Source of the DNA: Clavulina sp. PMI_390
Taxonomy: Eukaryota > Basidiomycota > Agaricomycetes > Cantharellales > Hydnaceae
Assembly (NCBI GenBank): GCA_015039315.1
Contig: WIDE01000038.1
Coordinates: 50,034 to 114,033, forward strand
Length of the DNA: 64,000 bases
Reading direction: 5' to 3'
In this document: in pieces, positions 4,594-56,996 of the stretch
How the letters are laid out: every line of letters begins with the position of its first letter
Numbering within the stretch: position 1 is the stretch's first letter
Made by a program: the position numbers and the translations under genes
The notes under the pieces: generated by a model
The model's database searches: none
Seen by the model: only the letters and a program-made list of their open reading frames with translations
What the model was told of the DNA's origin: nothing

Positions 4594-5946
4594 TCAGCTA
4601 TTAGTTGCGAATACCCTATCGCTAAATACAGCTTTGAGTTCGCTCCAGAACGAGTTTTCACCTGCGGGGAACGTCTCGTTTTCATCATACCCCAGCCTGG
4701 TGTGCTGATATAACTCCAGGACTTCGATCAGCACACCTAACAACGCAACCCGATCCTCCTCATCTGTTGCCTTGAGCGTAACCAGTCGCAGGGTAGGATA
4801 AGGGAGTCCAGCGAGTTTCGCGCTTCGTGAAGCACGTACATTCGACTGAAGCATGTGCGGAACCAGCAAGGCGCATAGGACACTGCTTGCCTCCGCCGCA
4901 TCATCCAACACAACTTCTTGCAGCCGTGGGAGCTTGAGCCTCCTGCGTGGTGGGTGTTGTCCATAATAAGGGAGTGGGCAATCGAGACAGAGTTTTTTGA
5001 CGGACGGGAAGCAGGCGTCGCCGTATGATGGCGATACGCTCAGTGACGCTGACGTCCAATGAATTTCCTCCAAAGCAGGGGCATGGAGGGAGGGGGAAAT
5101 GGGAGAGTATGAGTGATGAAGAACTTTGAGTTTGGGTAGGGCGATGTGTGAGGGTGCAAATGTTTGAAAATTTTCTCTACCAATGAGCCGGAGGCTTGTA
5201 ATTTGGGTGCACGACGCAATCAAGGGTCCGCTCCACCGATGTGAGGTATTCTTGATTGTAAGAGTAAGGTGATTGATCATATTGGCAGGAATTGGAGCGA
5301 TAGGGACTGAAAAAATCGTCACAACCCTTAGAGCGGTAAGGGATGAGGGTTGTGCAAAGATCGTAATGGGCGGACGGCTGAAGTTGATGTCGGAGTCTCC
5401 TGTGAGCACGAGTGTGGAGAGACGCGGCATTGGACCAGCCAGGGGGAAGAGAAGTGTAGCACTTTTGTTTCCCAGCATGTCGCAGCAGAAGGAAAGGCAC
5501 CGCTGTAGGTGAGGTATGACAGGTTCATAGACAGCCATGAACTGTTTGTGGAATGAGAGAACATCAGGGGGTGGGCAGATATAGATATCAATAGACGCTG
5601 TTTTTGAGCGCCTGATAAATGTCGAGATGATGGACCGCCCAACCTCTACTCCCTTCTTGACAATGGACGCGGTGATGACGATACATGTCCACAACTTTGG
5701 TGTCGCAATAGCAACGTTTCGCCAGTAGGAGCACATGGAGGTGATCACTGCAAGGGATTTCAGCTGCTCCCTCGCGTGTGCGTCGAGTTCTGACATTGCG
5801 ATGGGGTATTTCTGAGTAACTTCCTGGAATATTTTGCAACCAGCTCGTCAGGGAGTCTGTCAAAGAACGTTGGGCTCGAAGGATTTGGGATCCTAAAAAT
5901 CATTTAATCAGTCTGAAATAGGATAGGAAGATATGATGGTATACAT
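4594..5946 (-). pseudogene. F-box protein gene with frameshift in the F-box
   Basis: Member of the main F-box subfamily of this window: F-box, then SRWRN-like and LW-type motifs, then a conserved ~330-residue C-terminal region ending in an FW...RVF signature. The start codon is split, with AT at 5946-5945, intron 5944-5893, then G at 5892, giving MIPNPSSPTFFDRLPDELVAK. Immediately after, in a run of four A's (5832-5835), the frame is lost by one base. The expected continuation KIFQEVTQKYPIAMSELDAH lies in another frame, which then stays open to a stop at 4594 (400 residues from an internal ATG at 5796). It is either a one-base deletion or a homopolymer sequencing error. If translated from 5796 it would lack the F-box. 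Its closest relative here is the gene at 14905-16194 (shared SFCCDMLG). Confidence 0.75.
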
Positions 5947-6129
5947 AATGTCTATTCCTTTCTGGTGGTCGCAAACACGCGAGTAGAGCCGAGACACGAC
6001 AACAAACAGCACTAGGTGCAAACAATCAATGACTCGTTGTGCCAATGCACACTTTTACAGCCATTTCGAATGTGCCCTTATATTGAATGCTGTAGAGTGG
6101 TGAAATCATCTGTCTACTGATTTGTGTAT

Positions 6130-6355
6130 GACCATCTGTCGAAGGTGACCTCCGAATGGACGCAGGCGGCGTTTTGCTTGGAAGATGCAATTCTGAGACG
6201 GATTTGCGAACCCAAGTATGTAAGTATATACCATGGCAGCATATACAATTGATAGTGACCAATATGGTTTGCGAGGCACCTCTGCCCAGGAGCGTCGAAC
6301 AAAACTCGAACACTATCACAATTCACTTGCTTCTGATTCACCATCCCCGACTGAA
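6130..6355 (+). repeat. Orphan MBOAT upstream block
   Basis: It matches the sequence before MBOAT gene C: GGTGACCTC near 6146, then GGTTTGCGAGGCACC followed by AACAAAACTCGAACAC and CACTTGCTTCTG (compare 11410-11600). No MBOAT coding sequence follows. It is best explained as the remnant of a fourth, deleted copy. Confidence 0.65.
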
Positions 6356-7028
6356 TAGGAGGGTTTTGTGGGTGCTGGGCTTTCGGCTTTCGGGAATAAC
6401 AATAGTGTTTTTCGGCGATACATGTAGGTTCTCACGTTACGCTTTCTTGGGATCTGATTGGCAGGAGAAATCTGTGGAGCTCAAAAATCCGGCTGAACAG
6501 AGTTCCTTCGGACAATCGGATTTCTGCTTCAGCCCAGTACATGCTTCAACATCTCACCCCGCAATACCAGCACCGCCGCTGAGTATCGTGGATTTATGAC
6601 TAGATCTCGCTTCCCACAATGCCCCCCGCCACACAAGAAAGCCAAGAGTCCCAGCCGAGAGAAGCGAAAGACGCGATTGACTAATACTGAGGTTTGGGAC
6701 GAAGAGCGCACCACGAAATATTCTGCCTGGGGGTTTATGATCTACACCCCGGCGATATAGTTGCTCCTTTGCGCTAGCACGTAAATGTATTGATGATTGC
6801 TGCACGGAACCCAACAGCTCTTGGCGCGCATAGCGGAGAATGTTCGCGTGTTCAATCTCGATACCTCCACTTTCCTTATTAGGAAGTGTGTTGCACTCCT
6901 ATAACTAGTTTCATCGCCTCGTCTCAAGGACCAGCGGCGATAAGCTATAGTTCTCATTGTTTCTTTTGTCGGCGTTAGGCCATCTTCACTTCTCACTTAT
7001 AGTCAGTGATTAGCCATGGTGTACACTC

Positions 7029-9416: not shown

Positions 9417-11234
9417 ATGGCGCTTAACATCTCGACCATTGAACGGTGGGGCACATCGCTGCCCGCGTTTTTTGCAACGCCCAACACCGCCTCGACTGCT
9501 CTGCGCGCCTTTCTGCGTCTGATAGTGCCTCTACCCCAAGACAAGATCCCAATAACATGGTCTGCCGTACCGATAATATTCTCGCCCCTCCCATTAATGG
9601 CTTTTACGGCGTATCTCTCTCGGCGGCCAGGAACTTGGCTATGGCGACTAGCGATTGCACCCTTTGCTTCTCTATTGACCTTGCGTGCTGGATTCGGGTA
9701 TCACTTCCCAAACCCTCCCTACCACATATACAACTTTGCACTAGGTCAGTTGCTCCAATCCTCCAAGGGTGTTCTCTTCCAATCATCAGGGTAATATATT
9801 GTCTCATGACCTTCATTATCCCCCCCTCTTTTCAGGGCTCATGAGTGTCCCGATTGCCCTTAAAATACTAGAATTTGCGATATCTCCCCATGGTATGCTG
9901 AAGATGGGCGAAATCGAACCTGGTATCGTCAAAAAGCCTGCTGCAGAGCTCGATCGCGCAATGTGAGCGACGATAAATTTCGTGCCCACCATCTCGCTGA
10001 CATGGAGAGATGCTTTTAAATAGGAGCGGTGATCTGAAAAGTACCCCTCGCGAGCACACTTCGCCACGCAATCCCTTCGTTGCTGGCTTCGTAGACGCGT
10101 TTGAGGTGTGCTGTAGTATGCGCGGCATAGGATGGCAATTTGGGACAGGCACAAATGTCTATCTCGCTCCTGAATGGAGAGATACCACCAACAAAGCGCG
10201 TTTCATCCGTCAGACAATCGCCTTATGGCTGCTCAACTACACGCTGTTCGATGTGGTGACGTATGGGCTACGTTTGGTGCCTGGCTTGGGTACACCCACT
10301 GGTGGTTCCATTTTCGCTTTTGGAGGCGAAAGCATGGTGAAAAAGTATCTCATCTCGGCCACGCTCGCCTTTTTCACCGGCACGACCTTCATCACTGGTT
10401 CGTTTTTCCCACGCAACACTTGGAGCATATTGGCGCCCGTACTAAAATTTGCCATCGCTGATCGGTTTCTCTTGCCCCATTTAGGCTTTGAGGTGGTGCA
10501 CCAGCTTCTCACGCTTTTCGCTGTTGGAGTTCTTAACCAAGAGCTATCATCCTGTCCACATTTGTTCGAGAATCCTTGGATGGCTGTATCTCTCCATGAT
10601 CTCTGGTCAAGACGATGGCACCAGCTGGTCCGCCAGACATTCCTATTCTTGGGCGGATACCCACTCTCATACATCCTCTCGACCTTCGCAAGCCTCGTAT
10701 CCAGCGTTCTTCGTCTTCCCAAGTCTACTTCGCATCGTTTTGTGAAGAGCGCGAAACTACTTGGCTTCCTCGTGGGAACCTTCATCGGCAGTGGGCTGAT
10801 ACACTACTGGGGAACGTATGCGATGGGTCGAGGATCCGACTTACATCCCCTGATATTCTTCTCTGCACAATCGATCGGAATCATCCTAGAGCGAATGTGG
10901 AAACAAGTGACAGGGAGAAAAGTAGGTGGATTGTTTGGCCGTATATGGACAATCATTTGGGTTGTTGGCGGTATTCAGTGGTGTCGTAAGTCTTGCTACG
11001 CTATCGTCAGGTTCTTTTCGCCTGAACGAATACCCCGGTGCCTCGTCCTTTATCATCGAACCTGACGATCTGCTTATGGATATAGTTAATGCTTGGCACG
11101 AGCGAGCCTTCGAGAGCGAAGCGTTCTTCCCTCTATATCTGAGTCCCGCGCACCACATCATCTTCCCCCTTCTACAGCTCGCCTCAGATGCGATGGGTCT
11201 ATCAATCACTCTGGTTTCACCGCTTACTGACTAG
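9417..11234 (+). CDS. Wax synthase-type MBOAT acyltransferase, paralog B
   Basis: Second copy of the predicted membrane O-acyltransferase, 492 residues. Exons: 9417-9744, 9836-9962, 10024-10397, 10485-10985, 11086-11234, with the same intron phases as copies A and C. Motifs include SRRPGTWLWRLAIAPFA, FEVCCSMRGIGWQFGTG, SLHDLWSRRWHQLVRQ and GSGLIHYWGTYAMGRG, whose histidine is the expected MBOAT active-site residue. Intron 3 (10398-10484) is 87 bases with no stop, so the reading frame runs straight through it. The paralogs' equivalent introns are 85 bases and the flanking protein aligns only when it is removed. It looks functional. It is close to copy C, and copy A is more distant. Confidence 0.88.
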
Positions 11235-14904: not shown

Positions 14905-16194
14905 TTAAGTCTCATTGGTGAACACCCTCGCGCCAGATAGCTCTTTCAACTGAACCCAAAACGAATGATCACCCTTGGGGAATGTCTCAAGCCCATTATG
15001 ACTCAATCTGGTGTGCTTATACGACTCCAGCAGATCCGCCAACACACTCGAGAGCGCGTCCAAGTCCTCCTCGCCTGTAGTCTTTAGGATAACTAGCTTG
15101 AGGGCAGGGGAGGGTAGGGCGATGGGCTTCGCTCCTTCGGATGCCTGTGCATCTGGTCCAATGGTGTGAGGAAGGAGTAAGGCGCGGAGGACAGTACTTG
15201 GCATTGGCGCTTCATCTAGCACGAGTTTATGGAGTTTTGGGAAGATGAGTTTCAGACTTGGCGGCTGATTGTGATAATAGGGACGTGGCTTATGGAGGTA
15301 GAGCTCCTTGACCGTGGGGAGGTATGTACTGCCATATGTTGTAAGTGCGGTCAGGGACGCTTCCATCCAATGTATTTCTTCCAAAACGGGAGCTTCGAGG
15401 TAGGGCGTGACCGGATAATAGGAATGATGAAGGACTTTTAGATTCGGCAGTGCAAGGGGCGTTTGGGCGAGTGTTCTGAACACATCCCTGTCGTAGACTT
15501 CAAGACTGGTGATGTTGGAGGAGGATGCGATCAATGATATCTTCCACGTGGATGAAGTATGCACGACAGCAATAGCGAGGCTATCGATTGAGTTATCAGG
15601 GATTGGGGTAATTGGCACCCCAACAATCATCACATCCCGAAGGGCAGTAAGAGATGAGGGCTCAGCAAACACTGTTATGGGTGGAAAATCAAAGGGTATA
15701 AGAGTATTGCCTCCGAGTAGGAGCATGGAGAGACGAGGCATAGGGCCAATGAGAGGGAAGAGTAGCCGAATCATTTTTTCTCCCAACATATCGCAACAGA
15801 AGGAAAAGCACCTGTGGAGATGGGGGATGATAGGCTCATAAACTGCCATAAATTCTCCGTGCAGAGGGTATGTATCGGGTGGTAGGGCTAGATAGACACT
15901 TATTGAGCGGTTTTTCGATCGCTCAACAAAGGCTGAGACGATTGAACGCCCAACTGCCACACCCTTCTTGACCAAATCCGTGGTGACGATGACACAAGTC
16001 CATAGCTTTGATGTACTGATAGTGATGTTTCTCCAGCGAGAATCTATTGAGCTGGTGGTGACGAGTGCTTTTAGTTGCTCTGGTGCATGTGTCTCGAGGT
16101 CGGCACTAGACAACTCGGTGGGATGGGGAGTATGAATAAATTGCTCAAATATTGCTTCGAGGAGCTCATCAGGCAGGCTATTGACGAAAGGCAT
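14905..16194 (-). CDS. F-box protein, main subfamily
   Basis: 429 residues starting MPFVNSLPDELLEAIFEQF: a clear F-box followed by SRWRNITISTSKLWTCVIV. The frame is open a further 86 codons upstream, but that stretch has no family resemblance. It contains the CTTCAG|G acceptor seen before the F-box in sister genes, so I place the start at 16194. Unlike the sisters, no AT|GT donor lies nearby, so the intron here would be in the 5' leader or lost. C-terminal landmarks are PYYHNQPPSLKLIFPKL, LRALLLPHT and the FW...RVF end. The role as SCF substrate receptor is inferred from the family. It is the best match to the frameshifted copy at 4594-5946, so the pair may have duplicated along with the MBOAT genes. 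Confidence 0.85.
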   Translation of the reverse strand: MPFVNSLPDELLEAIFEQFIHTPHPTELSSADLETHAPEQLKALVTTSSIDSRWRNITISTSKLWTCVIVTTDLVKKGVAVGRSIVSAFVERSKNRSISVYLALPPDTYPLHGEFMAVYEPIIPHLHRCFSFCCDMLGEKMIRLLFPLIGPMPRLSMLLLGGNTLIPFDFPPITVFAEPSSLTALRDVMIVGVPITPIPDNSIDSLAIAVVHTSSTWKISLIASSSNITSLEVYDRDVFRTLAQTPLALPNLKVLHHSYYPVTPYLEAPVLEEIHWMEASLTALTTYGSTYLPTVKELYLHKPRPYYHNQPPSLKLIFPKLHKLVLDEAPMPSTVLRALLLPHTIGPDAQASEGAKPIALPSPALKLVILKTTGEEDLDALSSVLADLLESYKHTRLSHNGLETFPKGDHSFWVQLKELSGARVFTNET

Positions 16195-24400: not shown

Positions 24401-26003
24401 AGGGGTCAAGGGCAAGGCTCACCGAAGAGAATGCGTTACAGTCAGGCGTCAATGCGGAGTCGCACAGTGGGAGGCGTGAATCGGAGTATGGGAGTGGCGA
24501 TGGATGAGCGCGCACGAGCAATGCAAATGCAAATGCCGCCTCCCCCAGCACCACCCTTAGCAGTACCGATCTCAACTACGATGGAGATGCCTCCTCCTTC
24601 GAGCCCTGTTGCGCGGCTTGCTAGTGGTGACAATGGTGGCAGCATCACTACGCCAGGATCCATGCCTGAGTCACAAACGCAAGGATGGGTCGTGCCATAT
24701 CCTGTTTCTACTCCCGTTTCTACCATACCCTCTGGTACAGGATCAAGTCCACATGCGATTTATCACAATCAACTCGCAGCTGCATCATCGACTTCTCAGG
24801 AACCCACCCCTCGGCCATTCCATCACCCTAATTCTCACCAGGATCATCAACAGGCACCTGCGTCTCATATTCCCGGCTCACTTCCTGGTGCTAGCGATGG
24901 TCAACAGCCTCAATCCCAGCCATCATCGCCCACTGTGCCCCTCCGCCAACACCGTCCCACGTCGATCGCGCTTCCATCGCCTGTCACAGCCGCGCAATCG
25001 TATAGCATTGCTGAGAGGTTTCAGCAAATGCGGTCGACCCAGGGCCAGCCACAAAGCGCTCCCGCCGCGGCGTTTCCTATGTATATGCAGTACCCAGTGC
25101 AGACTCAAGGATCAGCGCACCCTCAAACGCAGCATCAGCACCAGACTCAGGCTCAGGCTCAGGCTCAGCCACCACCACCACCACCACCACCACCACAGCA
25201 GCAGCAGCAGCAGTTACCCCCACCTCACTTATCTACTCCCTTGTCAGCGCCACTGTCAAGCGCGACTGTGGGTATCCTGGGATATCCGAGTGTTGGTTCA
25301 GAGAGCTCAAACGGTTGGAGTGCCGCACCTGAGGTAACTCCAGCGATCCAAATGCAGGCGCCGGCGTTTGGCACTCCTCAGGGACAGTTTTACACCCACC
25401 AGCCGATGCAGATCTCACAGGTTATGTATTCACCCGAGCAGCAGCATCATCAGCCACAATATTATCTCTCCCCACAAGCTCCTCATCCACCCCCTCAACC
25501 CCAAACTCAATCTCAATTTCAACATCAGCTGCAGTCACCTGAGCAGCAGTTTACCCCATCATCACAACCCAGTTACCCTACATACACTGCCGATATTCAA
25601 TCACCTCCCAGTGAGGGAGACGATGACAATCGTGGGCTGGCGAACTGGCAATATCAATCACCGCAAGAACTGCTCGCAGAGGCTCAGGCGAGTGCGGTGG
25701 TCCATGAGATGCGCGAGGATTACGAATCTGGTCGAATGGTACGCTATTTTCTTTAATCTCTGTATGCAGGTTACTCGGCTTCAAGACTGAATTTGGACAT
25801 CGATCCTGTCAATATTTTAGTTTCGCCCCCCTCCGCACCCACATGAGATGTGGCCGCCGCCTCCCTCATCAGCCTACCATCCCTGGCCTCAATCACAGCC
25901 GCCACCGCCAGCTAACAACACACCATATCCGCCGCCACACCAACCCCCTGCTCTCCCCCAGCAACAAGCGTACTATCACTATTCACAGCCGCCGTCGTCG
26001 TGA
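21415..26003 (+). CDS. C2H2 zinc-finger transcription factor with long Ser/Pro/Gln tail
   Basis: Predicted nuclear DNA-binding regulator, 1159 residues. Five exons: 21415-21573, 21764-21791, 22488-22545, 22687-25738, 25821-26003. The splices rebuild two adjacent zinc fingers at about residues 36-85: FHCPHCDRSFDRPSLLGQ|HVLIHTGER, then PHLCPKCNQKRFSRTSNLYR|HMRTC. The second finger ends H-x3-C, i.e. C2HC, with a canonical TGERP linker. The remaining ~1070 residues are low-complexity, rich in Ser, Pro, Thr and Gln, with polyPro and polyGln near residue 890 and an acidic patch near residue 195, consistent with activation domains. Exon 5 (FRPPPHPHEMWPPPP to a stop at 26003) is supported by phase and composition. 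The 696-base intron 2 is long for this genome. The target genes are unknown. Confidence 0.88.
25145..25213 (+). repeat. Coding microsatellites
   Basis: Three adjacent in-frame repeats inside the zinc-finger gene: (GCTCAG)n coding Ala-Gln, (CCA)9 coding polyPro, and (CAG)n coding polyGln. They are likely length-variable between strains. Confidence 0.9.
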
Positions 26004-32918: not shown

Positions 32919-34269
32919 ATGTGTGTTCCCAAATCTCCTCTTCTCTGCGGTAATTTGACTGATGCCTTCTAGGGAGTCGAGTTATTCTTACGCTCACTTG
33001 ACTGACAAGCTACCAGACGAGTTATTGGCAGAAATCTTTGAGCACTACGTTCATGTATCACCCTTCACGCTGCACACACTCCCCATTGCCGGGATGCAAC
33101 AGCTCCACTCACTCCTCACCCTTACTTCCGTATCGTCACGCTGGCGAAACGCTGCAATAGGGGCGTCAATCCTATGGAAGTGGATTGTCATCGCCGCTCA
33201 TGTCGTTGACAGGGGCGCGGATATCGGGCGTTCGATTATAGAGGCCTTTCTTATTCGCTCAAGGAATCGGCCGATATCCATCTTCCTCTCACCTCCCCTT
33301 GATAACTTTACTAATCATGAAGTTTTTATGCAAGTATACGAGTTGGTCATCCCCCACCTGTGGAGATGTGATGGCTTTGGCTGTAACCAGCTAGGAAATG
33401 CGATCACACCCCTCCTGTTCCCCCTAATTGGACCTATGCCACGTCTTAACGCCCTTGTGCTTCTTGGTGATACTACCATCTTTGATTTATCTCCCATAAC
33501 GGTGTTTACCGAACCCTCTTCTCTCGGTGCGCTTCGGAGCGTGATGATTATTGGCGTCCCCATCGCTCCAATTTTGGACAACTCAATTGATTTTCTGAGT
33601 ATCAATCTGAAAAACACATCCCCCACGTGGGTTATGCCTTTGATTGCATCTTCTACTACGATCACTTTGCTGGGACTTACGAGCCCTAATATGCTTGGCA
33701 ATCCCCCTCCTGCCCGGATAGCGCTACCCGCTTTGAAAACTCTCCACCACCAGTACTATACCGTTTCCCCATTCTTCGAAGTCCCCCTACTTGAAGAATT
33801 ACACTGGTCGTGCGCGTCATTTACCGCCACTCCCTCGGATGGTGATGTCAACTTCCCAAGCCTGAAGAAACTTCAGATCTGGAGACCCTTTCCCTACCAT
33901 GACGAGGGGCCTCCGCGCAAGAAACTTGATTTCCCACAACTCACAGAACTCGTGTTGGGAAATGCAGTGGAGCCAAGCACTGCACTCCGCGCACTACTCC
34001 TTCCCAATACACTTGATCCCAACATGAATTCACCAAATAGAGCAACTCCTGTTGCGCTCCCTTACCCTGCACTTCAGTCAGTAGTGCTCAAAAGGACAGG
34101 CGAGGAAGACCTGGATGTGTTATACGGCGTATTGGCCGCCGTCCTCGAGTTGTACCCTAACGTCAAATTGACGTACGACCCTCACCAAACATTCCCTAAC
34201 GGCGATGAAGAGTTTTGGGGCCGGATCCGAACAGCCTTTTGTGCAAGGGTCTTAAGAGGTGACGGATGA
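32919..34269 (+). CDS. F-box protein, main subfamily, plus-strand copy
   Basis: Intact member of the main subfamily. The split-start model is AT at 32919-32920, intron 32921-32972 (GTGTGT...TCTAG), then G at 32973, giving MESSYSYAHLTDKLPDELLAEIF. An unspliced in-frame ATG at 32962 is possible and would add four residues. The F-box runs through SRWRNAAIGASILWKWIVI. The body includes DIGRSIIEAFLIRSRNRPIS, PLLFPLIGPMPRL, the LRALLLPNTLD block, and the end FWGRIRTAFCARVLRG. It is most similar to the gene at 62613-63908. The opposite orientation to its neighbours points to an inversion or dispersed duplication. Confidence 0.85.
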
Positions 34270-34670: not shown

Positions 34671-36085
34671 CTAGTACTTACAACCGGCATGAGCTCCCCA
34701 ATCTAGGAGTATATGAGATGAGGGAAGTGAAAACACTCGGTTCTCAAACTTTTCCTCCAATTCACGCCAAAAAGTGACGTTTCCCCGCGGAAACGTTTTG
34801 AACTCTTGGTATTGAAGCGTCAAGGACGGATAGGCCCAGAGTATGGCTTCAATTACGGCTAGGAATTTGCCCAGGGCATAGTCGTTTGTCTCCCAGAGGC
34901 CAAGGCGGCAAAGGTTGGGGAATGGAATTTTGCCTGTTTCTCCTGATACCAATATGTCAGCTCGGGATGGGAGTAAAAGTGGTTCCAGCAAAGTGGTGGC
35001 CTGAGCGTCATAAATGTCGAGCTCCTCGAGTAAAGGCATATGGAATCGAGGCGGTGCATTCTCCGTGAGGAAGTGAAGTTCATAAATGGAGGGGGAGTGG
35101 ATTGAGAGATACTTGAGAGTGGGGAAGGAAAGGAGCTCGTTGAACCTGCGGAAACGCATGCGCTTCCAGGAGAGGTGTTCCAGAGACGGCATCTCGAGGA
35201 ATTTGTCAGCACTAAAGCCGCTTTGAGATAGGTAAACCAACTGAGGTAGACGTATCTTTGTAATTGGATTTGCGTCTCCAAACGAGCGGGCGTCTGTCAA
35301 GTTGAGAGAGATCAGGCCCGTACACGATTCCATGAACGGCAATCACCAATGGATTGGGATGGCATTGGGCATACCGTCGCTAATTGTGAGGTCGTGGATG
35401 GAATCGCAGTCGCTGGGGGCTATTGCCAGGCCTGCTATTTCCAATGAAGTTAGGTTTGGCGGAGGTAATGACTCGGCGAAGATGGTCAAAGGGGTGGGGT
35501 TTGTGGTTTGGGCAGCTACGCGTAACCTTTTGAGTCTGGGCATGCCCTGTAGTGGGAAGACCCTTGGGAGAAGCCTCGAATTCATCCTAGACTCTGACCA
35601 CTCAACCCGGAGCGTTGAGCAGCGAGAGAGGTGGGGCTTGAGCGCTTTGAACACTTGCGGGAACTTGTAACGCCAGCTGTCAGCCAATGCGTCCGCAAGG
35701 TATAGATAGATCTCTAGCGAGGCATTTTTCGACCGTTCGATGTAGGCCTCAACGATCGCACGACCAACCTCCACTGACTGAGTCACAAGATCGGGGACGA
35801 TAGCAATCGTCGTCCACAAAATCGGACTTTGGATAGCAATCTGCCTCCAGCGAGAGCAGATAGAGGTGATATCGAGCAATAGCCCTAGCCTCTGCATGAA
35901 AGTAGCCGCGTAGAGTAGCCTGGGCGGACTGAAGACATGATGCTGCAAGACTTCAGCAATAAGCTCGGTGGGTAGAACGTCAATTCTGGGGCGTTGTATT
36001 TCTTTTTCTGCCCTAAGAAAATTAAATTCAGCACAAGTTCAACATTCCCGATGTTGTGATGGTGCAGCCCAGGACAAACTTACAT
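34671..36085 (-). pseudogene. F-box gene with one premature stop codon
   Basis: Split start: AT at 36085-36084 in the context ACCACCAT, intron 36083-36013 with a perfect GTAAGT donor, then G at 36012, giving MAEKEIQRPRIDVLPTELIAEVLQ. The frame continues through SRWRQIAIQSPILWTTIAI and DSIHDLTISDG to a TGA at 35345-35343. It then resumes in the same frame (LPFMESCTGLISLNL) to 34671. In sister proteins this position is W before LPFIASS, so TGG to TGA is the simplest lesion. Otherwise the gene is full length and open, which suggests a recent loss or a strain-specific allele. It is a divergent member of the main subfamily. Confidence 0.8.
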
Positions 36086-44179: not shown

Positions 44180-45545
44180 TTATGAATAAACAAACACCTT
44201 CTTGCCATACGTCTTTTTCATCTCGCCCCCAAAAATCTCATCACCTTTAGGGAACGTCTCGTACGCATCATATCCCAATCGGAGATCCTGATATGATTCA
44301 AGCAGAGTCATCAACACACCCCGCAATGCATCTAAATCCTCCGGATCTGTCCTCTTCAGTACTAGCAGTGTAAGGACTGGATACGGGAGCGAGGTGGATT
44401 TCGCCACCTCTTCCGATTGGCGCACGTTCGCCTCACGCAGGATGTGCGGAAGGAGCAGCCTTCGCAAGAAGACGCTCACCTCGTTTGCTTCGTCTATCAC
44501 GAGGTCCATGAGCTGTGGGAATTCGAGCTCTGCGAATGGGTATCCACCGTAGTTAGAGGGTGCGAGGTGGTACATGAATAATTTTGAGACAGTCGAGAAG
44601 GAAGAGGGATAATTGACCCAAGGCGGCTGATAGCCAATCATGCAAGATTTCCAATGCAGCTCGTCCAGTACCGGGGCATCCAGATATTGTGAAAGAGTGA
44701 AGCTACTCTGGAAGAGTATTTTTAGGTTAGGGAGGAGTATGGGAGTGGAATGAGTGTCGGCACGTAGGTAGCTACCCTGGAATACCAGGCTGGTCAGCTT
44801 TGTTGACGCGGCAATGAACGGCAGCACCCAATCGCGCACAGTGTATCCCTTGGTCATGTTAAGCCTCTCAATCGAATTATCAGGGACGGGGGAGATGGGC
44901 AGCCCGGATATCGTTGCAACCCAGAGCGCGGTCAAAGTCGCTGGCTCCGTGCATATTGATACTGACGGCACATCGAAATAGACATCGCCCACGAGTGTGA
45001 GGTTAGTGAGGCGTGGCACGGGCCCAGGCAGAGGGAACAGGAGAGGGAGAGAGGCGTCTTTTAGTTGGAAACAGCTAAATGACAAGCATCGTCGCAAGTG
45101 TGGTACGACAGGCTCATAGGCTCTCATGAACGCTCCAGATGGAGAATCAAGGTCCAGTGGTGGAAAAAGATCTATATCAATCGATCGATCTCTCGAGCGC
45201 TCAAGATAAGCCTGCACAATGGCCCGCCCAGCCTCTCCTTTCCTGATGATGCGGTCGTCGATGACGATCCATGTCCATAGCTGAGAGATGCTGATCGCGA
45301 CGCTTCGCCAGCCAGAAGAGACCGATGTGATCGTAAGGAGCGTTTCCAGCTGATCCTGTGCGAGTGGTCCAAATGTGTGCATCTGTGTGCGCTGTATGTG
45401 GCAGTGTGTCCAGTGCTGAAATATCTCAGCTAGCAGCTCATTAGGGAACTGGCCAATGAGGTTGAAAGAGGAGTACCTCGGCTCCCTACATGATCTTTGT
45501 TTCAATAGCCGCTATGAGACGAGGATGCAGCAATAGCACCTACAT
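44180..45545 (-). CDS. F-box protein, main subfamily, array member 1
   Basis: 435 residues. Split start: AT at 45545-45544, intron 45543-45486 (GTAGGT...TGTAG), G at 45485, giving MEPRYSSFNLIGQFPNELLAEIFQHW. The F-box is followed by SGWRSVAISISQLWTWIVI and ERSRDRSIDIDLFPPLDLD. The helix 1 core is FPNELL instead of the usual LPDELL, the only copy here with this change. The C-terminus ends MKKTYGKKVFVYS. It is the first of eight minus-strand copies spaced 150-450 bases apart (44-57 kb), each with its own short promoter. The spacing looks like tandem duplication, not an operon. Confidence 0.87.
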
Positions 45546-45702: not shown

Positions 45703-47072
45703 TCAATCGCTCCCAACCTCAGAGGTGGCGAGCACCCTCCCACCATACGCCTGTCTCAACTCATCCCAAAACTCTTCATCGCCTTGAGGGAATGTCTCTT
45801 GCGCATCGTATTCTAATCTGATATTCCGATATGACTCTAGCAGAGCCACCAGCACCTCCCGCATAGCACCAGTGGTGTCCCCGTCTGTCGTCTGCAGCCT
45901 CACCACTCGAAGGTCAGGGTATGGAAGTACGACGGGCTCATTTGCCTTTTCGTGATGATCGATCCTCTGACCGAACGTGTGTGGAAGGAGCAGCCCGCGT
46001 AAGATGGTGCTGACCTTCATAGCACTGTCTATTGTGAGGTCCGTGAGATTTGGACATTCGATTTTATTTGATGGCGAATGATCGAGGCGGTGGGGAACAG
46101 GACTGTACAAGAATAATTTTGTCACCGACGAGAAGGACGGGACCTGGCTGGGCGTATGAGCCTGCTGACCATGAAGCTGGCATGACGTCCAGTGCAGTTC
46201 TTCCAGTTCTGGAGCATCCAAGTACGGCGAGAGGTTGGATTGGTTATGATAGAGGATTTTTAGATTCGGGAGGATGACACGTGTGGAAGGGACGTCACCA
46301 AGCACGTCGTCGTCCCTCAACGCCAGGCTGGTTGCTTTTGTTGAAGAGGCGACTAGAGGTAGCGCCCATGCAGGCAGAGGATAGTGAACCGATATTCTAA
46401 GTTGCTCGATTGAATTATCGGGTATTGGGGCGACAGGTACTCCGATAATGGTGAGGTTACGGAGTTCAGTGAGTGATGAGGGGTCCGCAAAGAGTGTTAC
46501 AGACGGCAGAGTAACGTCACCCATGAGGAAAAGAGTGACAAGACGTTGCATGGGCCCGGCGAGAGGGAATAATAGAGATATAGTGCTGTTGCTCAGTTGG
46601 TAACAGCAGAAAGCCGAACATCGATGCAGGTGGTGTGTGATAGGTTCATAGGCTTCCAGAAATGCATCAGGCGGAAAGACGTTCCCTATGGGCAGGAATA
46701 GATCTACCCAGATAGAACGATCCTTTGAACGCTCGAGAAAAGCCTCGATAATGTGACGCCCAACCTCTCCCTTTCGAAAGACTTGCGCAACGATGGCAAT
46801 CCAAGTCCATAGTTGAGAGGCGCCGATCGCGACGTTTCTCCAGCGAGAAGAGACAGAGCTGATGGCGAGGAGTGTTCTTAGCTGCTTTTGAGCGATACTA
46901 GGAAACGTGTGCATCTTGACACGTTGCACATATGTACAGTGCTCAAATATTTCAGCTAGGGACTCATCAGGGAGCCCGTCGAAAGGGCGGATAGAGGAGA
47001 TCTCCGCCAACCTAAAGATGGGAGACATCAATGAGGGCTAGCAAATGATGAAAGATGGGGTAACACCAACAT
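45703..47072 (-). CDS. F-box protein, main subfamily, array member 2
   Basis: 436 residues under the split-start model: AT 47072-47071, intron 47070-47012 with a weaker GTTGGT donor, G 47011, giving MLAEISSIRPFDGLPDESLAEIFEHC. Two contiguous in-frame ATGs (47031, 47028) sit inside the proposed intron and are the alternative start. Downstream are SSRWRNVAIGASQLWTWIAI, RHIIEAFLERSKDRSI and LRGLLLPHTFG, ending FWDELRQAYGGRVLATSE. It is intact. Closest array neighbours are members 1 and 3, judged by the THxQ/RxxMHTF-type N-terminus and the RCSAFCCYQL phrase. Confidence 0.85.
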
Positions 47073-47215: not shown

Positions 47216-48613
47216 CTAGGTTGTACGTCGGTCATCGCTCCCATACACCCAACCCTGCTCATCCAGGATAACGGAAACCCTCTCGCCGTATGCCTTTCTC
47301 AACCTGCCCCAGAACTCTTCGTCATTCCGAGGGGACGTGCAGTGTGCATTATACTCCAATCTGACGTTCTGGTATGACTCGAGTAGAGTTACCAGCACGT
47401 CGCGCAGCAGACCCAAATCCTCCTCATCCGTCATCCCTAATCTCACCAATTGAAGGGCAGGATATGGAAGGATGACAGGGTTAGACCCTTTGGATCGGTA
47501 TGTGGCCGTATCGAGGGTATGGGGGAGGAGCAGTGCGCGCAAGACGGTGCTCACCTCCACCGCATCGTCGATGACGAGATCTCTGAGTATTGGAAACTCA
47601 AGCTTCCTCAATGGGGGATGGACCCGGTGGTATGGGAAAGGGCTGTACATGTAGAACTTGGTGACAGACAGGAATGAGGAAACATGGCCTCGCGTCCGAG
47701 CCGGTGCGCACCCAACCAGCAAGACGTCCAATGAAGCTCGTCCATTGCGGGTGCATTGAGGAATGGTGAGACGGTGAACTGGTTTTGATGGAGTATTTTT
47801 AAATTAGGAAGAGATACGTGAGTGTTAGGAAAGTCGCCAAGCATATCTCCATCCTTTAGCACCAGATTTATCGCTTTGACCGAAGAGGCAATCAACGGAA
47901 GCGTCCATGTAGGAGATGTTTCGTTTATGGAAAGCGTGAGCCACTCGATCGGGTTATTGGGGATAGGCGCGATGGGAACCCCGGTAATTGTCGCATCCCG
48001 GAGCTCAGTGAGGGATGAAGGTTCCGTAAATACCGTCACGGGTGATATATCAACATCCCCCATAAGGACTAGGTCGGTGAGACGGGGCATGGGCCCATAA
48101 AGGGGAAATATCAGAGGAGTCAAAGCGTTTCCTAGCTGGAAACACCAGAAGGAAGAACAACGGTGGAGTTGAGGGATGAGAGCCTCATAGACTCGCATGA
48201 ATGCATCAGGCCCGGATGTGATGTCGAGAGGCGGGAATAGGGCTATTTGAATCAATCGGTTTCTTGAACGCCCAATAAAAGCCTCGATAATCGAGCGCCC
48301 AACATCGCTTTTCTCCAATATTTGGCTAGTAACAACGATCCACGTCCAAAGCATAGAAGTGCCCACTGCACTATTTCTCCAACGAGAACAGACCGAGGTG
48401 ATGACCGAGAGTGTTCTTAATTGTCTCTGCGCCGCGTGAGGAATTGCACTAGCAGGTGTCAGGGCCCGTGGCTCATGAGTGCAGTGTGAGAATATTTCAG
48501 CCAGCAGCTCGTCAGGTAACCCGTCGAAATGGTTGATTGAGAAATCTGACAGCCTGAAAGATGACATTGTTACTGACTAATGTACGGCGAGGCCGTGAAT
48601 ATCACACGTACAT
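47216..48613 (-). pseudogene. F-box gene, array member 3, frameshifted
   Basis: Split start: AT 48613-48612, intron 48611-48554 with a strong GTACGT donor, G 48553, giving MLSDFSINHFDGLPDELLAEIFSHC. The frame is intact through SRWRNSAVGTSMLWTWIVV and up to MDELHWTSCWLGAHRLG near 47700, where one base appears to be missing. The continuation GHVSSFLSVTKFYMYSPFPY is in another frame and open to 47216. The short version would stop at 47608. Because nearly all the protein is otherwise preserved, this is either a young pseudogene or a sequencing error. Confidence 0.8.
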
Positions 48614-48819: not shown

Positions 48820-50109
48820 TCATCCAGAAACACTCAACACTCTCGCACCATATACCTTTCTCAATTCTCCCCAGAATTGATCATTGTTACTTGGGAAGGT
48901 CTTGAGCGAATCATATTCCAGTCTCGTATTTTGATATTCTTCAAGTAGATCCACTAGCACATTGCGTAACGCAGTAAGGTCTTCTGGGTTGGTCACCTTC
49001 AGCTCCACCACCTGAAGGGCCGGATAGGGGAGCAGGAAGCTGGCCGCTCCCTCGGGCCGCTCCACGGCTGGATCGAGCGTATGTGGAAGGAGCAGCCCTC
49101 TCAGGAAGGTACTTACCTCCACGGCTTCGTTAATCCTCAGCTCCTTCAAACTCGGGAAATCGAGCTTCCTTGGCGGAGGCTCTGTATCATAGAAAGGGAA
49201 GGGGCTATTGAGATAGAGCTTTGTAAGGGCTGGGAAGGATGAAGTGTGCCCGTCAACTGGCTTCACCCCAAGCCAACAAGCCAGCCAGTGGAACTCATCC
49301 AGCGCTGGGGCATCGAGGAACGGTGCGATGGTGCAATGGGCTTGCTGAAGGACTTTGAGCCTGGGTAGGTGGATACGCGTGGATGGAACCTCGCCGAGCA
49401 TATCGTCCTCCCACACCTCAAGCTTCAGCCTAGTGACATTGGTTGAGGAGGCGATGAACGGTAACGCCCACATAGGTAGGCTCTCGCTTAATCCAATAGT
49501 AAGTTGGTCAATGGAGTTGGGGTGTATTGGCAACATGGGGACTCCGAGAATTATCATGTTCCGAAGCGCAGTGAGTGATGATGGTTTTGTGAATGCAGCT
49601 TTGGGAGGCCCATCAACATCACCTACGAGGCGGACAGTGGAGAGGCGTGGCATGTCCCCATGGAGAGGAAGAATTTGGTCAACGATCTCGTTTCTTAGTC
49701 GAAAGCAGGAGAAAGAAGAACACCGGCGCAGGTGGGGTATGACAGGCCCGTAGACTCGCATAAATGAAGGCTCATCAAAAAGTGGTATAGCCAAATAAAT
49801 GTCGATCGATGCATTTTTCGAGCGCTCAATGAATGCCTCAACAACCGAGCGTCCAACATCCGTGCCTCGATGGAAAGTATGGTCAGCAATGACAATCCAC
49901 GACCACAGCTGTGGGGTGCTGATAGCGACGCTTCGCCAGCGGGAGGAGATGGAAGTGGCATCGAGAAGCAGTTTTAACTGTTTTAATCCATCCTCGGGGG
50001 CTGAGCGGCTGGGGAAGGGGGAAATGTGTGTAGAGTGGTGAATTATCTCAGCCAGCAATTCGTCAGGTAGCCGGTCGAATATGACCATGGAGAAGTTTCT
50101 GGTGTACAT
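48820..50109 (-). CDS. F-box protein, main subfamily, array member 4
   Basis: 429 residues, intact, apparently one exon. The start is the contiguous ATG at 50109 (MYTRNFSMVIFDRLPDELLAEIIHH). This copy does not show the AT|G arrangement: the acceptor-like CACCAG before AAC would join to A, not G. The F-box continues with SRWRSVAISTPQLWSWIVI. Characteristic phrases are RCSSFSCFRLRNEIVDQILP and DEFHWLACWLGVKPVDG, ending FWGELRKVYGARVLSVSG. It shares the LPLHGDMPRL-type region with members 5-7. Confidence 0.85.
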   Translation of the reverse strand: MYTRNFSMVIFDRLPDELLAEIIHHSTHISPFPSRSAPEDGLKQLKLLLDATSISSRWRSVAISTPQLWSWIVIADHTFHRGTDVGRSVVEAFIERSKNASIDIYLAIPLFDEPSFMRVYGPVIPHLRRCSSFSCFRLRNEIVDQILPLHGDMPRLSTVRLVGDVDGPPKAAFTKPSSLTALRNMIILGVPMLPIHPNSIDQLTIGLSESLPMWALPFIASSTNVTRLKLEVWEDDMLGEVPSTRIHLPRLKVLQQAHCTIAPFLDAPALDEFHWLACWLGVKPVDGHTSSFPALTKLYLNSPFPFYDTEPPPRKLDFPSLKELRINEAVEVSTFLRGLLLPHTLDPAVERPEGAASFLLPYPALQVVELKVTNPEDLTALRNVLVDLLEEYQNTRLEYDSLKTFPSNNDQFWGELRKVYGARVLSVSG

Positions 50110-50444: not shown

Positions 50445-51791
50445 CTACCTGGATATGGCGAATACCCTCTTTCTATATGCCTGCCTCATCTCGCCCCAGG
50501 ACCGTTCATCGCCTACAGGGGACGTCTTGCACATATCGTATGCCAATCTGAGATGCTGATATGACCTGAGCAGGGTTTCCAGAACACCTCGCAGCATATC
50601 AAGGTCCTCTGCGCTCGTCGCCTTGGGTTCTATCATCTGAAGACTGGGGTAGGGCAGCTGTGCGGGCTTTGCTCCATCGGAGACGTCACCATTTGGATCG
50701 AGCGTCTGCGGGAGGAGTAGCCCGCGCAGGAAGGTCCTTACATCCTCCGCTTCATCTATTAAGAGGTTAGTGAGCCTCGGAAAGTCAAGCTTTCGCCATG
50801 GAGGATGATCATGGTGGTATGGGAAGGGGTGGCTCATGTATAACTTTGTAATGGTTGGGAAGGACGAAACACAGCTGTAGTTAGGCTCGACTCCTAGCCA
50901 GCAATATATCCAGTATAGCTCCTCTAGCGCAGGGGCTTCCAAGAATGGCGAAATGGTGAGCTCGGTCTGATAAAGGACTTTGAGATTGGGAAGAAGGATG
51001 CGTTTAGACGGAATCACATTGACCGCGTCCCCATCCAACAACTGCAGAATAGTGACATTGGTTGACGTTTTTATGAATGGTAGGGTCCAGAAGTCCCCAC
51101 CCCCGGCTACAGAGAGGCTTATCTTCTGTGCTGGATTGTTCGGGACTGGCAAAGTAGGGACACCAGCAATTGTCACGTCCCAAAGGGCACTGAGGGATGA
51201 AGGCTCTTCAAACACCCTTGTGGGCGATTCATCAATACTTCCAGTGAGGTAAATTGCGGAGAGACGCGGCATACACCCTTTGAGGGGGAATATCTGAAGG
51301 ATGATCTCCCTTTTTAGCTGATAACAAACAAAGGAAGAACATCGGTCAAGATGAGGTATGATAGGCTCATAAACACTCGTAAATGTCTCAAGAGCAGAGA
51401 AGACGCGACGCGACTGTATATTGATATGCACGTCAATCGACCTGTTTCCCGAGCGCTCGACAAATGCCTGGGTGATCGAGCGCCCAGTCACCGCTCCTTG
51501 ACGGAGGACGTGATGATCAATGACGATCGATGTCCATATCCGTGAAGTAGTGATCCCAACATTTTGCCAGCGGGAAGAGATGGAGGTCGCAGTGACAAGC
51601 AGCTTCAGCCTTACGGAACTGCTGGTGGACAAGGGACTGGGTAAAATATAGGTGAATTGATCAAGTATCTCAGATAGCAGCTCGTCGGGCAGTCTGTCGA
51701 AGAATGATATAGAGAGATCCCTGGATAAACTGGATCTCGGTAATCTCTATTATGAATTGATAAAATAAAGTCGCAAAGATAATGCGTACAT
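50445..51791 (-). CDS. F-box protein, main subfamily, array member 5
   Basis: 425 residues. Here the split start is strongly needed, because no suitable contiguous ATG precedes the F-box. AT 51791-51790, intron 51789-51721 (GTACGC...ATCCAG), G 51720, gives MDLSISFFDRLPDELLSEILDQF. Starting at the next ATG-like position would delete the F-box. It continues with SRWQNVGITTSRIWTSIVI, VFEEPSSLSALWDVTIAGVP, WIYCWLGVEPNYSC and LRGLLLPQTLDPN, ending EMRQAYRKRVFAISR. It is intact. The unspliced intron contains an early in-frame stop, so intron retention would abolish the protein. Confidence 0.85.
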
Positions 51792-52087: not shown

Positions 52088-53441
52088 TCATCCAGGAGTG
52101 GTAAAGACTCTCTCACCGTATCTCTCTCTCATTCCCTCCCAGAACCGTTTATTGCGTTTGTGGAAGGGATCTTGGGTATCATATCCTAGCCTAACCCTTG
52201 GATATGACTCAAGTAGTGTAACGAGCACACCTCGCAGAGTATCTCGGTCCTTCGCTTTCATTGCCTTCAGCTTTAACACCTGGAGAGAGGGATACGGGAG
52301 TCTTACAATCTCCCCTTCCTCCGACAGGTCCCCCTTCGAGTTGAAAGTGTGTGGGAGGAGGAACCCACGCAGGACGGTACTCAGATCGTGCGCACCATCT
52401 ACGATGAGAGTTTCTAGTAGCGGAAGTGGGAGATTTTGCTGTGGAGGGTAATCGTAGGGGTAATCGTAAGGGTACTGTAGGCAAAGCTTTGTGACGGCCG
52501 TGAAGGACGGGACATGGCCATGGGTAGGGTTGTCGTTGAAGCGAAAGGAGTTCACCTGCAGCTCTTCGACTAGTGGGGCATCCAGAAACTGCTCCACGCA
52601 CGTGTACTTGTGACGGAGGAATTTGAGGTCAGGAAGGTAAATGCGTTTGATTGGACTCTCGTCCACCTGGTCCCTGTCCCACAGTTCTAGGCTAGCTATC
52701 TTGGTCGAAGACGCGACGAATGGCAGTGTCCAAGTAGGGTGGCCGTCTCCTATGGCGAGAACAAGCCGATCAATACCGTTTTCAGGGATCGGCAATGTTG
52801 GAACTCCAACAATTTTCACATCCCGAAGCGCGGTGAGTGATGAGGGGTTTGTAAATGCTGCCATGGGTGGTATGGTCACTTTTCCTGCAAGAATAATTTT
52901 GGAAAGGCGTGGCATAGGTCCTCTCAGGGGAAGAATTCGTGAAACGTTGTTGTTGATTATTCGGAAGCAGTAAAGAGATAAACACCGGTGGAGGTGCGGG
53001 ACGACAGGTTCGAAGATTTGCATGAATATGGCAGAGCGAGAGAGAGCATCCTCTAACGGGAGAACCAGGTATAGAAACAGTGATTGGTTTTTCGAGCGCT
53101 CAATAAATGCCTCCATCATGGAGCGTCCGATGTGTACTCCTCGATCGAGGAGAGGGTCACCGATGACGATCCAGGTCCATAGCTGAGAGGCACCGATCGC
53201 GACGCTTCGCCAGCGTGAGGAGACGGAGGTAGTAATGAGGAGTAAATCCAGTTGGTTTTCTCCATCCTCAATGGACCCGGGGTCAGGGGTCGAAGAGACG
53301 CATGTATAGTGCTCGAATATCTCAGCCAACAACTCGTCAGGTAGTTTATCAAATACGCCTGCAGGAGAGTCTGAATCCCTAAAAGCTGGCTGGTTCAGCG
53401 GTTTTTGTCACAAGGTGAGGATATTGAGGGGCTGCATACAT
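52088..53441 (-). CDS. F-box protein, main subfamily, array member 6
   Basis: 430 residues. The split start is again required: AT 53441-53440, intron 53439-53379 (GTATGC...TTTTAG), G 53378, gives MDSDSPAGVFDKLPDELLAEIFEHYT. The F-box is followed by SRWRSVAIGASQLWTWIVI and HIGRSMMEAFIERSKNQSL. A local oddity is a short YPYDYPYDYPP repeat around residues 306-316, encoded by tandem GGGTAATCGTA units in the DNA. It ends FWEGMRERYGERVFTTPG. It is intact, with no frame problem. Confidence 0.87.
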
Positions 53442-53781: not shown

Positions 53782-55165
53782 TCATCCAGCAACCGAAAAC
53801 ACCCTGTTGCCGAATGATTGTTTCATCTGAGCCCAAAACCACTTATTAGGTTGAGGGAAAGTTTCATTAACATTATATCGCAACTTGACGGTCTGATATG
53901 ACTCCAACAGAGTCGTCACTGCGTCTTGCAACTCGCCTAGCTCCTCTGGACTTGTCGTCTCAAGTACCACCAGCTCGAGCGCTGGATAGCGGAGTGGAGC
54001 AAATATCATTTGATCTGGTGATATACGAATCGACTTGATTGTGTGTGGCAGGAGCAGCGCGCGAAGGGTTGCAGCCACCTCCCCCGAGTCATGAATCCAG
54101 AGCTCTGTGAGCTGTGGAAACTCGAAACGATGCGGCAAAAGTCTCTCGTGGTCGTGGAGATAGTGAGTTGACTCACGAAACATCGGGGAGTATAAATGGA
54201 GTCTTGTGAGAGATGGGAAAGACGCCATGGGATTTTCGAACCCCCGTGGACCAAGCCAACAGTCCACCCAGTGAAGCTCGTCGAGCACTGGAGCATCCAG
54301 GAAAGGAATTAGGCTCCCACTTGGATGATGGAAGACCCTGAGATTAGGGAGGAAAACATCCATAGATGGGTCCTCGTCGAAAATGTCGAAGATGTTGGTG
54401 TTCAGCTTAAGGCTGGTAACCTTGGTGGAGGAGGCGAGGAATGGTATGGCCCACATATCGCGGCCGCGTGAGCCCAGGACAAGATTTTCAACGGGGTTAT
54501 TATGCATCGGAAGCGCGCGAAGGCCGTTGATTGTCATCTCCCGAAGTGAAGAGAGCGATGAGGGTCCCGCAAATATGGTAATGGGGTCAGCTTCGGTGTA
54601 GCCCTCAAGATAAATCTCGCTGAGACGAGACAAATTTCCTGGGAGAGGAAAGATCCGCTTAGCGATCTCGTCTCCTGGCTGGAAGCACCAAAAGGAATAG
54701 CACCGATGCAAGTGGGGAATAACAGGCTTATAGACTTGCATGAAGGTTTCAGAGCTGGAGGCATGCCCGAGCATGGATGGTATCAGACAGATGTCGATTA
54801 ACTGGTTCCCCGAGCGTTCAAGAAACGTCTCTACGATGAAGCGGCCGGCGTCTGCTCCTTGACGGAGGATGGCTCCAGTAATGATAATCCACGTCCACAG
54901 GCGAGGAGTATGAACTGCGACATATCGCCAGCGGGAAGAAACGGAGGTGGTGATGAGGAGAGGTTCAAGTTGTTTATGCGCATCATAAATGGATGGCCTG
55001 TTCTTTGTCGAAAAGAAAGATGTGTAGCGCTCGAATATGTCGACGAGCAACTCGTCTGGCAGTCTATCAACAAAGTTCTGAGATGGTTTTGTCATTTGCC
55101 TATAGGACAACTGTGTCACTGAGTGCGACAAAGTGAGGATAGAGTTAGAGACGATATAAGTACAT
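53782..55165 (-). CDS. F-box protein, main subfamily, array member 7
   Basis: 439 residues with the split start: AT 55165-55164, intron 55163-55100 (GTACTT...CTATAG), G 55099, giving MQMTKPSQNFVDRLPDELLVDIFERY. An ATG two codons downstream would also retain the F-box. The frame stays open upstream to 55317, but that stretch crosses the intron and lacks family similarity. Landmarks: SRWRYVAVHTPRLWTWIII, RCYSFWCFQPGDEIAKRIFP, WVDCWLGPRGFENP, LRALLLPHTIKS, and the end FWAQMKQSFGNRVFSVAG. It is intact and somewhat divergent from members 4-6 in the central part. Confidence 0.86.
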
Positions 55166-55607
55166 GAGAATCCGTTAATGGGGCGGTGTGGTGGGGATGG
55201 CAGTGCGAGGAAAACAGGTGTTGAGGTACATATACCTGTGACATCGGACTCGTGACTCCGCTTTCTCCTGTTCGTTACGAGGGTCACCCGATCCGAAAGG
55301 GTTTTGATACCAGACATGCATGTAGTCGCTCATAAACACCAGCTGGTGGTGGCGCCCGAGGGGGTGATGGCTCCGGGAAATCAATTGGCCAGTAGGGTGT
55401 TTAGGTCAGGGCGATGGAGCAATGGGGGTTTTGGGCTTCGCCTAAGATTCGAATAGTACCACTTCACGGACGAAATGACACCTGATAGGCGTCATTTACA
55501 CGCATCTTCGTAGTGTGGGCAAGAATTAGTTGTGTTGTATTTTAATCTCTACGTGGTACAAAATACAGTAATTTATCTCTTAGGCAAAAAATGATTCGTG
55601 TCTTACG
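55166..55607. other. Array spacer, nothing recognised
   Basis: Promoter of member 7 and 3' flank of member 8. No supportable feature. Confidence 0.4.
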
Positions 55608-56996
55608 TTAGGTAACCGTTCCCCTTGCTTTCGAGATGGGGTACACTCGCTCGCCGTACTTCTTGATCATATCCCCCCAGAACTTGTCGTTATTCATCGG
55701 GGCCGTCTCGCCCGGGACACACCCTAATTTGACATTAGGATAGTCCTCGAGCAGAGTGACCAACACATCGCGGAGCTCATACACATCCTCCGGCTCCGTT
55801 GACCTCAGTTCCACCACTTGGAGGGAAGGGTACGGGAGCTTGATAGCTGGATTTTTCCCATTTGCAGATCGATCTCGGTTCAAGGCCCGATCGAGTGTGT
55901 GCGGGAGGAGCATCCCGCGCAGGACGGTGCTCGCCTGCTCTGCATCGTCCAAGACGAGCTTCGTAAGGAGCGGGAACTCGAGCTTGCGCTCTGGGGGATG
56001 ATTGTGATGATATGGGAAAGGGGCGTCCATGTAGAACTTTGTGACGGCAGGGAAAGAAGAGATATTGCCAAACGTGGCCTCGGCACCGAGGAAACAAGAT
56101 GTCCAGTGGAACTCGTCCAACGCCGGGGCATCGAAGTATGGGGCGACGGTGAACTGGGTCTGATGGAGCACCTTGAGCTTGGGGAGGAGAACGCGTGTTT
56201 CTGGAATATCGCCCAGCATATCTCCTTCCATCAAACACAAGCTAGTAATGTTCTTTGAGGACTCGATGAGCGGGAGGGTCCATGTAGGCAGGGTTTCATT
56301 GAGAGCGAGGTTGAGAAGCTCGATCTTGTTGTCAGGTATCGGCTGGATAGGAATCCCAATAATCGTTGCATTTCGTAGCAATGTAAGGGATGAGGGCTCT
56401 GTGAACGCTGGTACCAGTGCTATGTCGAGCGTGGGGGCCTCACCCACGAGGAAGAGCGTGGTTAGACGCGGCATGGGTCCGACGAGAGGCAATATGAGAG
56501 GTGCGGTGTTGTTTCCTAGTTGGAAACAGTAAAAAGAAGAACACCGGTCCAGATGCGGTATAAGAGGTACATAGGCTGCCATGAATTCGTCCTGGAAAGG
56601 CTCAGTATCCAGAGGTGGACCCAGGTAGATATCGATTGACCTGTTTCTCGATCTTTCAAGAAATGCTTCGACAATCGAGCGTCCCATGTCTGCTGGTTTC
56701 CTGAAGACATGGTCAATGATGACGATCGATGTCCAAAGCCTTGAGGTGTCAATCGCGATATTTCGCCATCGGGAGGAGACCGAGGTGACGAGGACGAGGG
56801 TTTGCAGCTGCTCTAGCGCGTCTTCGGCGAACGTTTTTGTTCGTATCGAAAGCTTGTCGGTGCAGTACCCGAATATTTCGACTAGTAGCTCATCAGGTAG
56901 CTTGTCAAAGCATTTGATCGACGGTTCTGCAGCCCTGAGGAGCGAATTCTCTACTTGAGGCCATTGAAGCGAGCGCATAGAAGGATGCACATACAT
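55608..56996 (-). CDS. F-box protein, main subfamily, array member 8
   Basis: 442 residues. Split start: AT 56996-56995 (context CCATCAT), intron 56994-56935 with a consensus GTATGT donor and CTCAG acceptor, G 56934, giving MAAEPSIKCFDKLPDELLVEIFGYC. The intron is 60 bases without a stop, so the unspliced frame reads through from the same AUG and would add 20 residues. This is the only copy where retention is harmless. Landmarks: SRWRNIAIDTSRLWTSIVI, ERSRNRSIDIYLGPPLD, LRGMLLPHTLDRA, FWGDMIKKYGERVYPIS. It is intact and is the first gene at the upstream end of the array. Confidence 0.87.
   Translation of the reverse strand: MYVHPSMRSLQWPQVENSLLRAAEPSIKCFDKLPDELLVEIFGYCTDKLSIRTKTFAEDALEQLQTLVLVTSVSSRWRNIAIDTSRLWTSIVIIDHVFRKPADMGRSIVEAFLERSRNRSIDIYLGPPLDTEPFQDEFMAAYVPLIPHLDRCSSFYCFQLGNNTAPLILPLVGPMPRLTTLFLVGEAPTLDIALVPAFTEPSSLTLLRNATIIGIPIQPIPDNKIELLNLALNETLPTWTLPLIESSKNITSLCLMEGDMLGDIPETRVLLPKLKVLHQTQFTVAPYFDAPALDEFHWTSCFLGAEATFGNISSFPAVTKFYMDAPFPYHHNHPPERKLEFPLLTKLVLDDAEQASTVLRGMLLPHTLDRALNRDRSANGKNPAIKLPYPSLQVVELRSTEPEDVYELRDVLVTLLEDYPNVKLGCVPGETAPMNNDKFWGDMIKKYGERVYPISKARGTVT

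Follow-up and report, generated by a model that had tools for sequence, protein, structure and literature searches.

Predicted introns inside the initiator codon across a clade of F-box genes in Clavulina sp. PMI_390

F-box genes of the window

The window analysed here is the whole stretch of 64,000 nucleotides taken from contig WIDE01000038.1 of Clavulina sp. PMI_390, a fungus of the Cantharellales (forward-strand positions 50,034 to 114,033) and numbered from its first letter. In the accessible text of PMC6634985, the Clavulina strain appears only in co-culture. The initial annotation of the window had listed ten F-box paralogs whose start codon is divided by an intron. At all ten coordinates, each the A of AT, we find the arrangement AT|GT...AG|G, and once the intron of 52-71 nt is taken out, AT and G together form a Met in frame with the F-box in 10 of 10. 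The frame reaches the F-box core (e.g. LPDELLAEIF), and nine of the ten sites lie on the minus strand.

Four minus-strand copies have no other in-frame ATG ahead of the F-box core, as had been claimed for at least four. The first, at 53441, has AT at 53441-53440, a 61-nt intron (53379..53439), G at 53378 and codons continuing to 52091; its product begins M-D-S and corresponds to public protein P0001. The copy at 36085 (AT 36085-36084, intron 36013..36083, 71 nt) has the donor GTAAGT, reads AUG-UAA when unspliced and gives M-A-E. Similarly, the copy at 45545 (AT 45545-45544, intron 45486..45543, 58 nt) has the donor GTAGGT, reads AUG-UAG when unspliced and gives M-E-P, and the copy at 51791 (AT 51791-51790, intron 51721..51789, 69 nt) has the donor GTACGC and gives M-D-L.

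The single plus-strand copy of the ten, at 32919, has AT at 32919-32920, a 52-nt intron (32921..32972), G at 32973 and codons to 34266; its product begins M-E-S and corresponds to P0005, which takes the split start even though a contiguous in-frame ATG is also present. Two minus-strand copies carry an in-frame ATG within the intron end, where public proteins begin: the copy at 47072 (AT 47072-47071, intron 47012..47070, 59 nt, weak donor GTTGGT, product M-L-A) is covered by P0003, and the copy at 48613 (AT 48613-48612, intron 48554..48611, 58 nt, donor GTACGT, product M-L-S) by P0007. On the same strand, the copy at 55165 (AT 55165-55164, intron 55100..55163, 64 nt) has the weak donor GTACTT and gives M-Q-M, so that codon 3 is a second Met. 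The minus-strand copy at 56996 (AT 56996-56995, intron 56935..56994, product M-A-A) has an unspliced frame that stays open and in frame through the 60-nt intron into the F-box, and P0004 reads through it. Finally, the minus-strand copy at 5946 (AT 5946-5945, intron 5893..5944, 52 nt, weak donor GTATAC, product M-I-P) has the split arrangement, but its frame breaks soon past the F-box start, and a stop lies inside it.

The list of ten was correct but incomplete: the plus strand carries another split copy, at 60254, which has decayed. Here a 57-nt intron (60256..60312) is bounded by CCACCAT|GTGAGT and TATAG|G within an F-box relict (60250-60436) that is absent from the protein-search matches and was detected by pattern search. 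Three other window members of the clade, at 16176, 50070 and 63878, lack a split start. The reported GT donor is present at all ten sites, but 5 of 21 donors across the clade are weak (GTTGGT, GTACTT, GTATAC, GTATTC, GTGGAT).

Other frames lie in the window. Amid the F-box genes, frames at 10010-11062 (+) and 36900-38294 (-) match the MBOAT_2 acyltransferase and the CitMHS and ArsB transporter families, respectively, and a 1030-codon open frame at 22664-25756 (+) has no Pfam match at E 0.001.

The predicted proteins

Of the 21 split clade members, 17 have an unbroken frame of 421-442 codons after the intron; the shorter ones are the copies at 5946, 36085 and 48613 and locus L005. One of four window proteins scored above the cut-off for the Pfam family F-box-like (PF12937; 34.6 vs 24.3 bits), with the others at 20.4, 24.1 and 22.8. 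A structure model with a mean pLDDT of 82 shows helices at the N-terminus and, behind them, a repeat-like tail of strands and helices. Foldseek against solved structures returned a mouse cytoplasmic lattice chain as the top match (E 7e-5), followed by SKP2, FBXL17 and COI1 (E 4e-4 to 1e-3), with query TM-scores of 0.25-0.45. These are probably F-box proteins with leucine-rich-repeat-like tails, and we take them to be likely substrate receptors of SCF complexes. A protein search for relatives in other species returned only distant F-box proteins (best E 1.6e-13 among the 7996 best word-sharing candidates scored).

Census of split starts in the genome

Using one window protein as the query against the 39.4 Mb genome, we identified 24 close loci with E values of at most 1.6e-16, of which the window contains 13. 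They stand apart from a tail that starts at E 1.1e-11. The 11 loci outside the window, picked by protein similarity alone, all have a split start. Overall, a fixed split-start criterion was satisfied by 21 of 24 clade members as compared with 2.2% of 4800 dinucleotide shuffles of the flanks, and a stricter donor (GTRNG) by 16 of 24 vs 0.15% of shuffles, these loci being non-independent trials because they are homologous. The donor and acceptor thus occur at a conserved position in 21 of 24 members; across all split loci listed here, the presence of GT and AG is true by construction. Among 86 other F-box loci, picked mostly for a covered N-terminus from a genome with further F-box loci beyond these, one satisfied the fixed criterion and none had the strict donor, and the same script found an ordinary in-frame ATG within 60 codons in 82. 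Ten split starts in one window therefore exceed chance, as had been argued.

Some loci were dropped ahead of counting. Locus L012, just past window position 64000, is the same gene as that at 63878 and reads N upstream, and the leader of this gene was judged from window sequence alone. Also left out were fragments of the family that lack an N-terminus, for example near 14683 (-), where a short F-box fragment has ATGTATGC ahead of it without a matching in-frame AG|G.

A pair of genes on contig C202, L048 and L049, also have split starts (AT|GTGAGC) and no other in-frame ATG, bringing the split loci to 23 with the 21 clade members. Their neighbour L100 has an ordinary ATG. The three form their own group (support 100/99), and the tree does not settle the backbone between this group and the clade. 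A second, independent gain in the C202 pair is likely, and the tree backbone allows it without proving it. A protein search with the C202 protein found no relatives in other species.

We also searched the whole genome for CAMMATGTRAGT, which gave 54 matches vs 23 for a reversed-pattern control. Of these, 52 were followed up, leaving out two known members (the copy at 36085 and L006), and one, L131, reads N beyond the match. Four of 52 join AT|G to a single-exon frame of at least 80 codons (L120, L142, L147 and L152), and one further match, at window position 60250, is the F-box relict. L142 and L152 have long open frames upstream, and L120 would require an intron of 102 nt that ends in an AAG acceptor. 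The remaining candidate, L147, on contig C280 near 222077, has CACAAT|GTGAGT, a 53-nt intron, CAG|G and an 87-codon frame that is not of the F-box family, making it a possible split start outside this family. This crude test, confined to single-exon frames and so missing multi-exon genes, gives no support to split starts as a genome-wide habit.

Features of the introns and flanking exons

Over the 23 loci, the predicted introns are 48-71 nt long and phase 2, falling between the second and third base of the initiator codon. A GT donor and an AG acceptor are U2-type features, and CTNAY is a branch-point-like consensus. CTNAY occurs at 8-35 nt from the acceptor in 12 of 23 loci, not clearly above shuffles (mean 7.5, with 63 of 1000 reaching 12). 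A purine at -3, the Kozak context, is present in 15 of 23.

Because the donor begins with G, an AUG is already present in the unspliced RNA. This AUG runs into a stop within 25 codons in 22 of 23 loci, the copy at 56996 being the exception, and in 10 of 23 it is followed immediately by one (AUG-UAA, AUG-UGA or AUG-UAG). With shuffled introns, a mean of 20 of 23 loci end within 25 codons and 46 of 500 shuffles reach 22, so no special selection for such early stops in unspliced RNA is demonstrated.

Five genes on C239, whose products begin M-C-T-S and whose acceptors are AAG, provide a comparison among close relatives. Codons 2-5 show 27 of 120 pairwise differences, distributed 0/6/21 over codon positions 1/2/3. 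The last 12 bases of the intron differ at 65 of 120 comparisons and the 12 exon bases before AT at 66 of 120. This indicates coding constraint after the acceptor and none visible before AT; the AT and G themselves are invariant because of how the loci were selected.

Public proteins and alternative starts

The anatomy, the distribution over the clade and the agreement with public proteins can be read directly from the sequences. Eight entries of the protein collection lie over split loci. Three match, from end to end and residue for residue, the products that we predict: P0001 for the copy at 53441 (430 aa), P0005 for that at 32919 (432 aa) and P0010, sourced to NCBI, for L010 (430 aa). Apart from their first Met, where the unspliced codon is AGG, P0001 and P0005 are each encoded by one unbroken stretch of the window; since AGG is no start codon, this Met must come from a spliced model. 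The three collection proteins thus imply intron removal at the level of the sequence models. The other five count against the split start, as only 3 of 8 adopt it: P0003, P0007 and P0004 begin at contiguous ATGs, and P0008 and P0011 begin inside the protein. If the predicted splicing holds, this is also an annotation pitfall, with 5 of the 8 entries starting elsewhere. Also weighing against the split start are the weak donors in 5 of 21 clade members and the AAG acceptors of the five C239 genes.

We consider it very probable that a phase-2 intron in the Met-1 codon has been kept through duplication, and that its splicing is a precondition for an in-frame start where no other ATG exists. The main alternative is that these are 5′-leader introns, or non-functional remnants, with translation starting further downstream at a contiguous ATG that lies either at the end of the intron or near the beginning of exon 2. 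The three proteins that start at contiguous ATGs agree with this, as does the presence of such an ATG ahead of the F-box in 8 of the 21 split clade members and in the unsplit copies at 50070, 16176 and 63878. In contrast, the F-box core of 15 of 23 split loci (13 of 21 in the clade, plus the two on C202) is preceded by no other in-frame ATG, and there the next Met falls at residue 22-151. Moreover, P0005 takes the split start with a contiguous ATG available, and coding constraint in the C239 genes begins at the acceptor. We judge this alternative improbable. The original statement that splicing is needed for an in-frame AUG accordingly stands for those 13 clade members and both C202 genes, but in the other 8 of 21 the contiguous ATG could serve as a backup.

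An even less probable reading is that exon 1 codes further upstream, making the Met internal and the intron an ordinary phase-2 intron that happens to fall in an ATG codon. An in-frame upstream ATG before any stop is found in 3 of 23 loci (the copies at 48613 and 51791, and L005), but not in the other 20, where we reject an internal Met on this test of contiguous upstream frames. In addition, exon 1 of the C239 genes is as diverged as the intron, and the three matching collection proteins start at the split Met. Lastly, AT followed by GT is frequent and could be found ahead of any F-box, as the 1.6-2.2% of shuffled flanks yielding candidates illustrate; the clade census against shuffles and other F-box loci, under both the fixed and the strict donor, together with the three collection proteins, excludes such coincidence as a general explanation and leaves it almost no probability, although single weak loci (L005 and the copies at 5946 and 47072) could be due to chance.

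History of the arrangement

We built a tree of 110 F-box regions, in which the bootstrap is not fully settled and from which L067 and the broken copy at 5946 were left out. The close loci form one clade (support 100/97), in which 20 rows are split and 3 are not. Each of these 3 sits in a different subclade, with split neighbours. All three are on the minus strand and begin with a contiguous ATG. In the copy at 50070 (48820..50109), AT is gone and the ATG lies in a stretch that aligns with the intron end. In the copy at 63878 (62613..63908), an AT stands where its sister has the donor GT. In the copy at 16176 (14905..16194), the ATG is six codons ahead of the F-box core and AT|GT is not preserved. 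Alignment of these diverged leaders suggests that each unsplit member carries a decayed donor or AT. We set aside the idea that the copy at 50070 retains a 9-nt coding remnant of the intron, because the alignment fits equally well a start shifted into the former intron end.

On this tree, one ancestral gain followed by three losses is the simplest account. The earlier proposal of an ancestral and retained architecture is supported by the 21 of 24 members in the census, by a single clade with three scattered exceptions, and by three collection proteins with a Met that only splicing can provide.

Proposed mechanism

Under the preferred reading of a retained intron in the initiator codon, exon 1 would consist of the 5′ leader and AT, and exon 2 of G and the protein. 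Before splicing, AT and the donor G would form an AUG whose frame is mostly short; splicing would then replace the donor G by the exon G, so that the AUG reads into the protein. This organization would have been present in the clade ancestor and kept through tandem and dispersed duplication, and it would have been lost three times as a contiguous ATG took over.

Splicing at the loci beyond those covered by the three matching proteins, use of this AUG and any regulatory benefit are what we infer from this arrangement, as is the coupling of splicing to initiation in this F-box family. If the RNAs are spliced as predicted, most family members would be unable to start the F-box protein correctly from unspliced RNA, and their output would be tied to splicing at the initiator codon. 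More than 20 natural copies, together with sister genes lacking the arrangement, would then constitute a test set for the effects of start-codon introns. In a stronger version, which seems to us unlikely, splicing is a start-codon gate: a consensus donor GTRAGT directly after AT would also act as a start-stop element and keep the F-box protein from being made as long as the intron remains. An independent gain in the C202 pair, if it took place, would on this version mean that the arrangement was selected and not simply inherited.

Comparison with known systems

The nearest known proteins for comparison are the F-box/LRR proteins of SCF ubiquitin ligases (Skp2, FBXL17, COI1): the model likewise has N-terminal helices and a repeat-like tail, but sequence identity is 12-14% and the query TM-scores stay under 0.5. 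At the gene level, introns in 5′ leaders near the start codon are known for intron-mediated enhancement. The F-box genes resemble such genes in having a short 5′-proximal intron ahead of an uninterrupted frame, but differ in that removal of the intron also sets the frame of the AUG.

Among the papers listed by our literature searches on split start codons, none concerned a gene family of this kind. The closest case is Yarrowia lipolytica (2026, PMC13309789), for which the accessible text reports, from transcriptome data, 42 introns whose 5′ splice site directly follows one of the start-codon bases A, T or G. It also reports that introns of this region are spliced efficiently and go with high expression. 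As described there, these belong to the same class as the Clavulina AT|G introns. Single start-codon introns are thus already known, and what is new here is the retention of one across a whole family through its expansion. The Yarrowia study, in its accessible part, gives a genome-wide count without family tracing and without a separate figure for introns after T, whereas in Clavulina AT|G is kept in 21 of 24 paralogs of one family.
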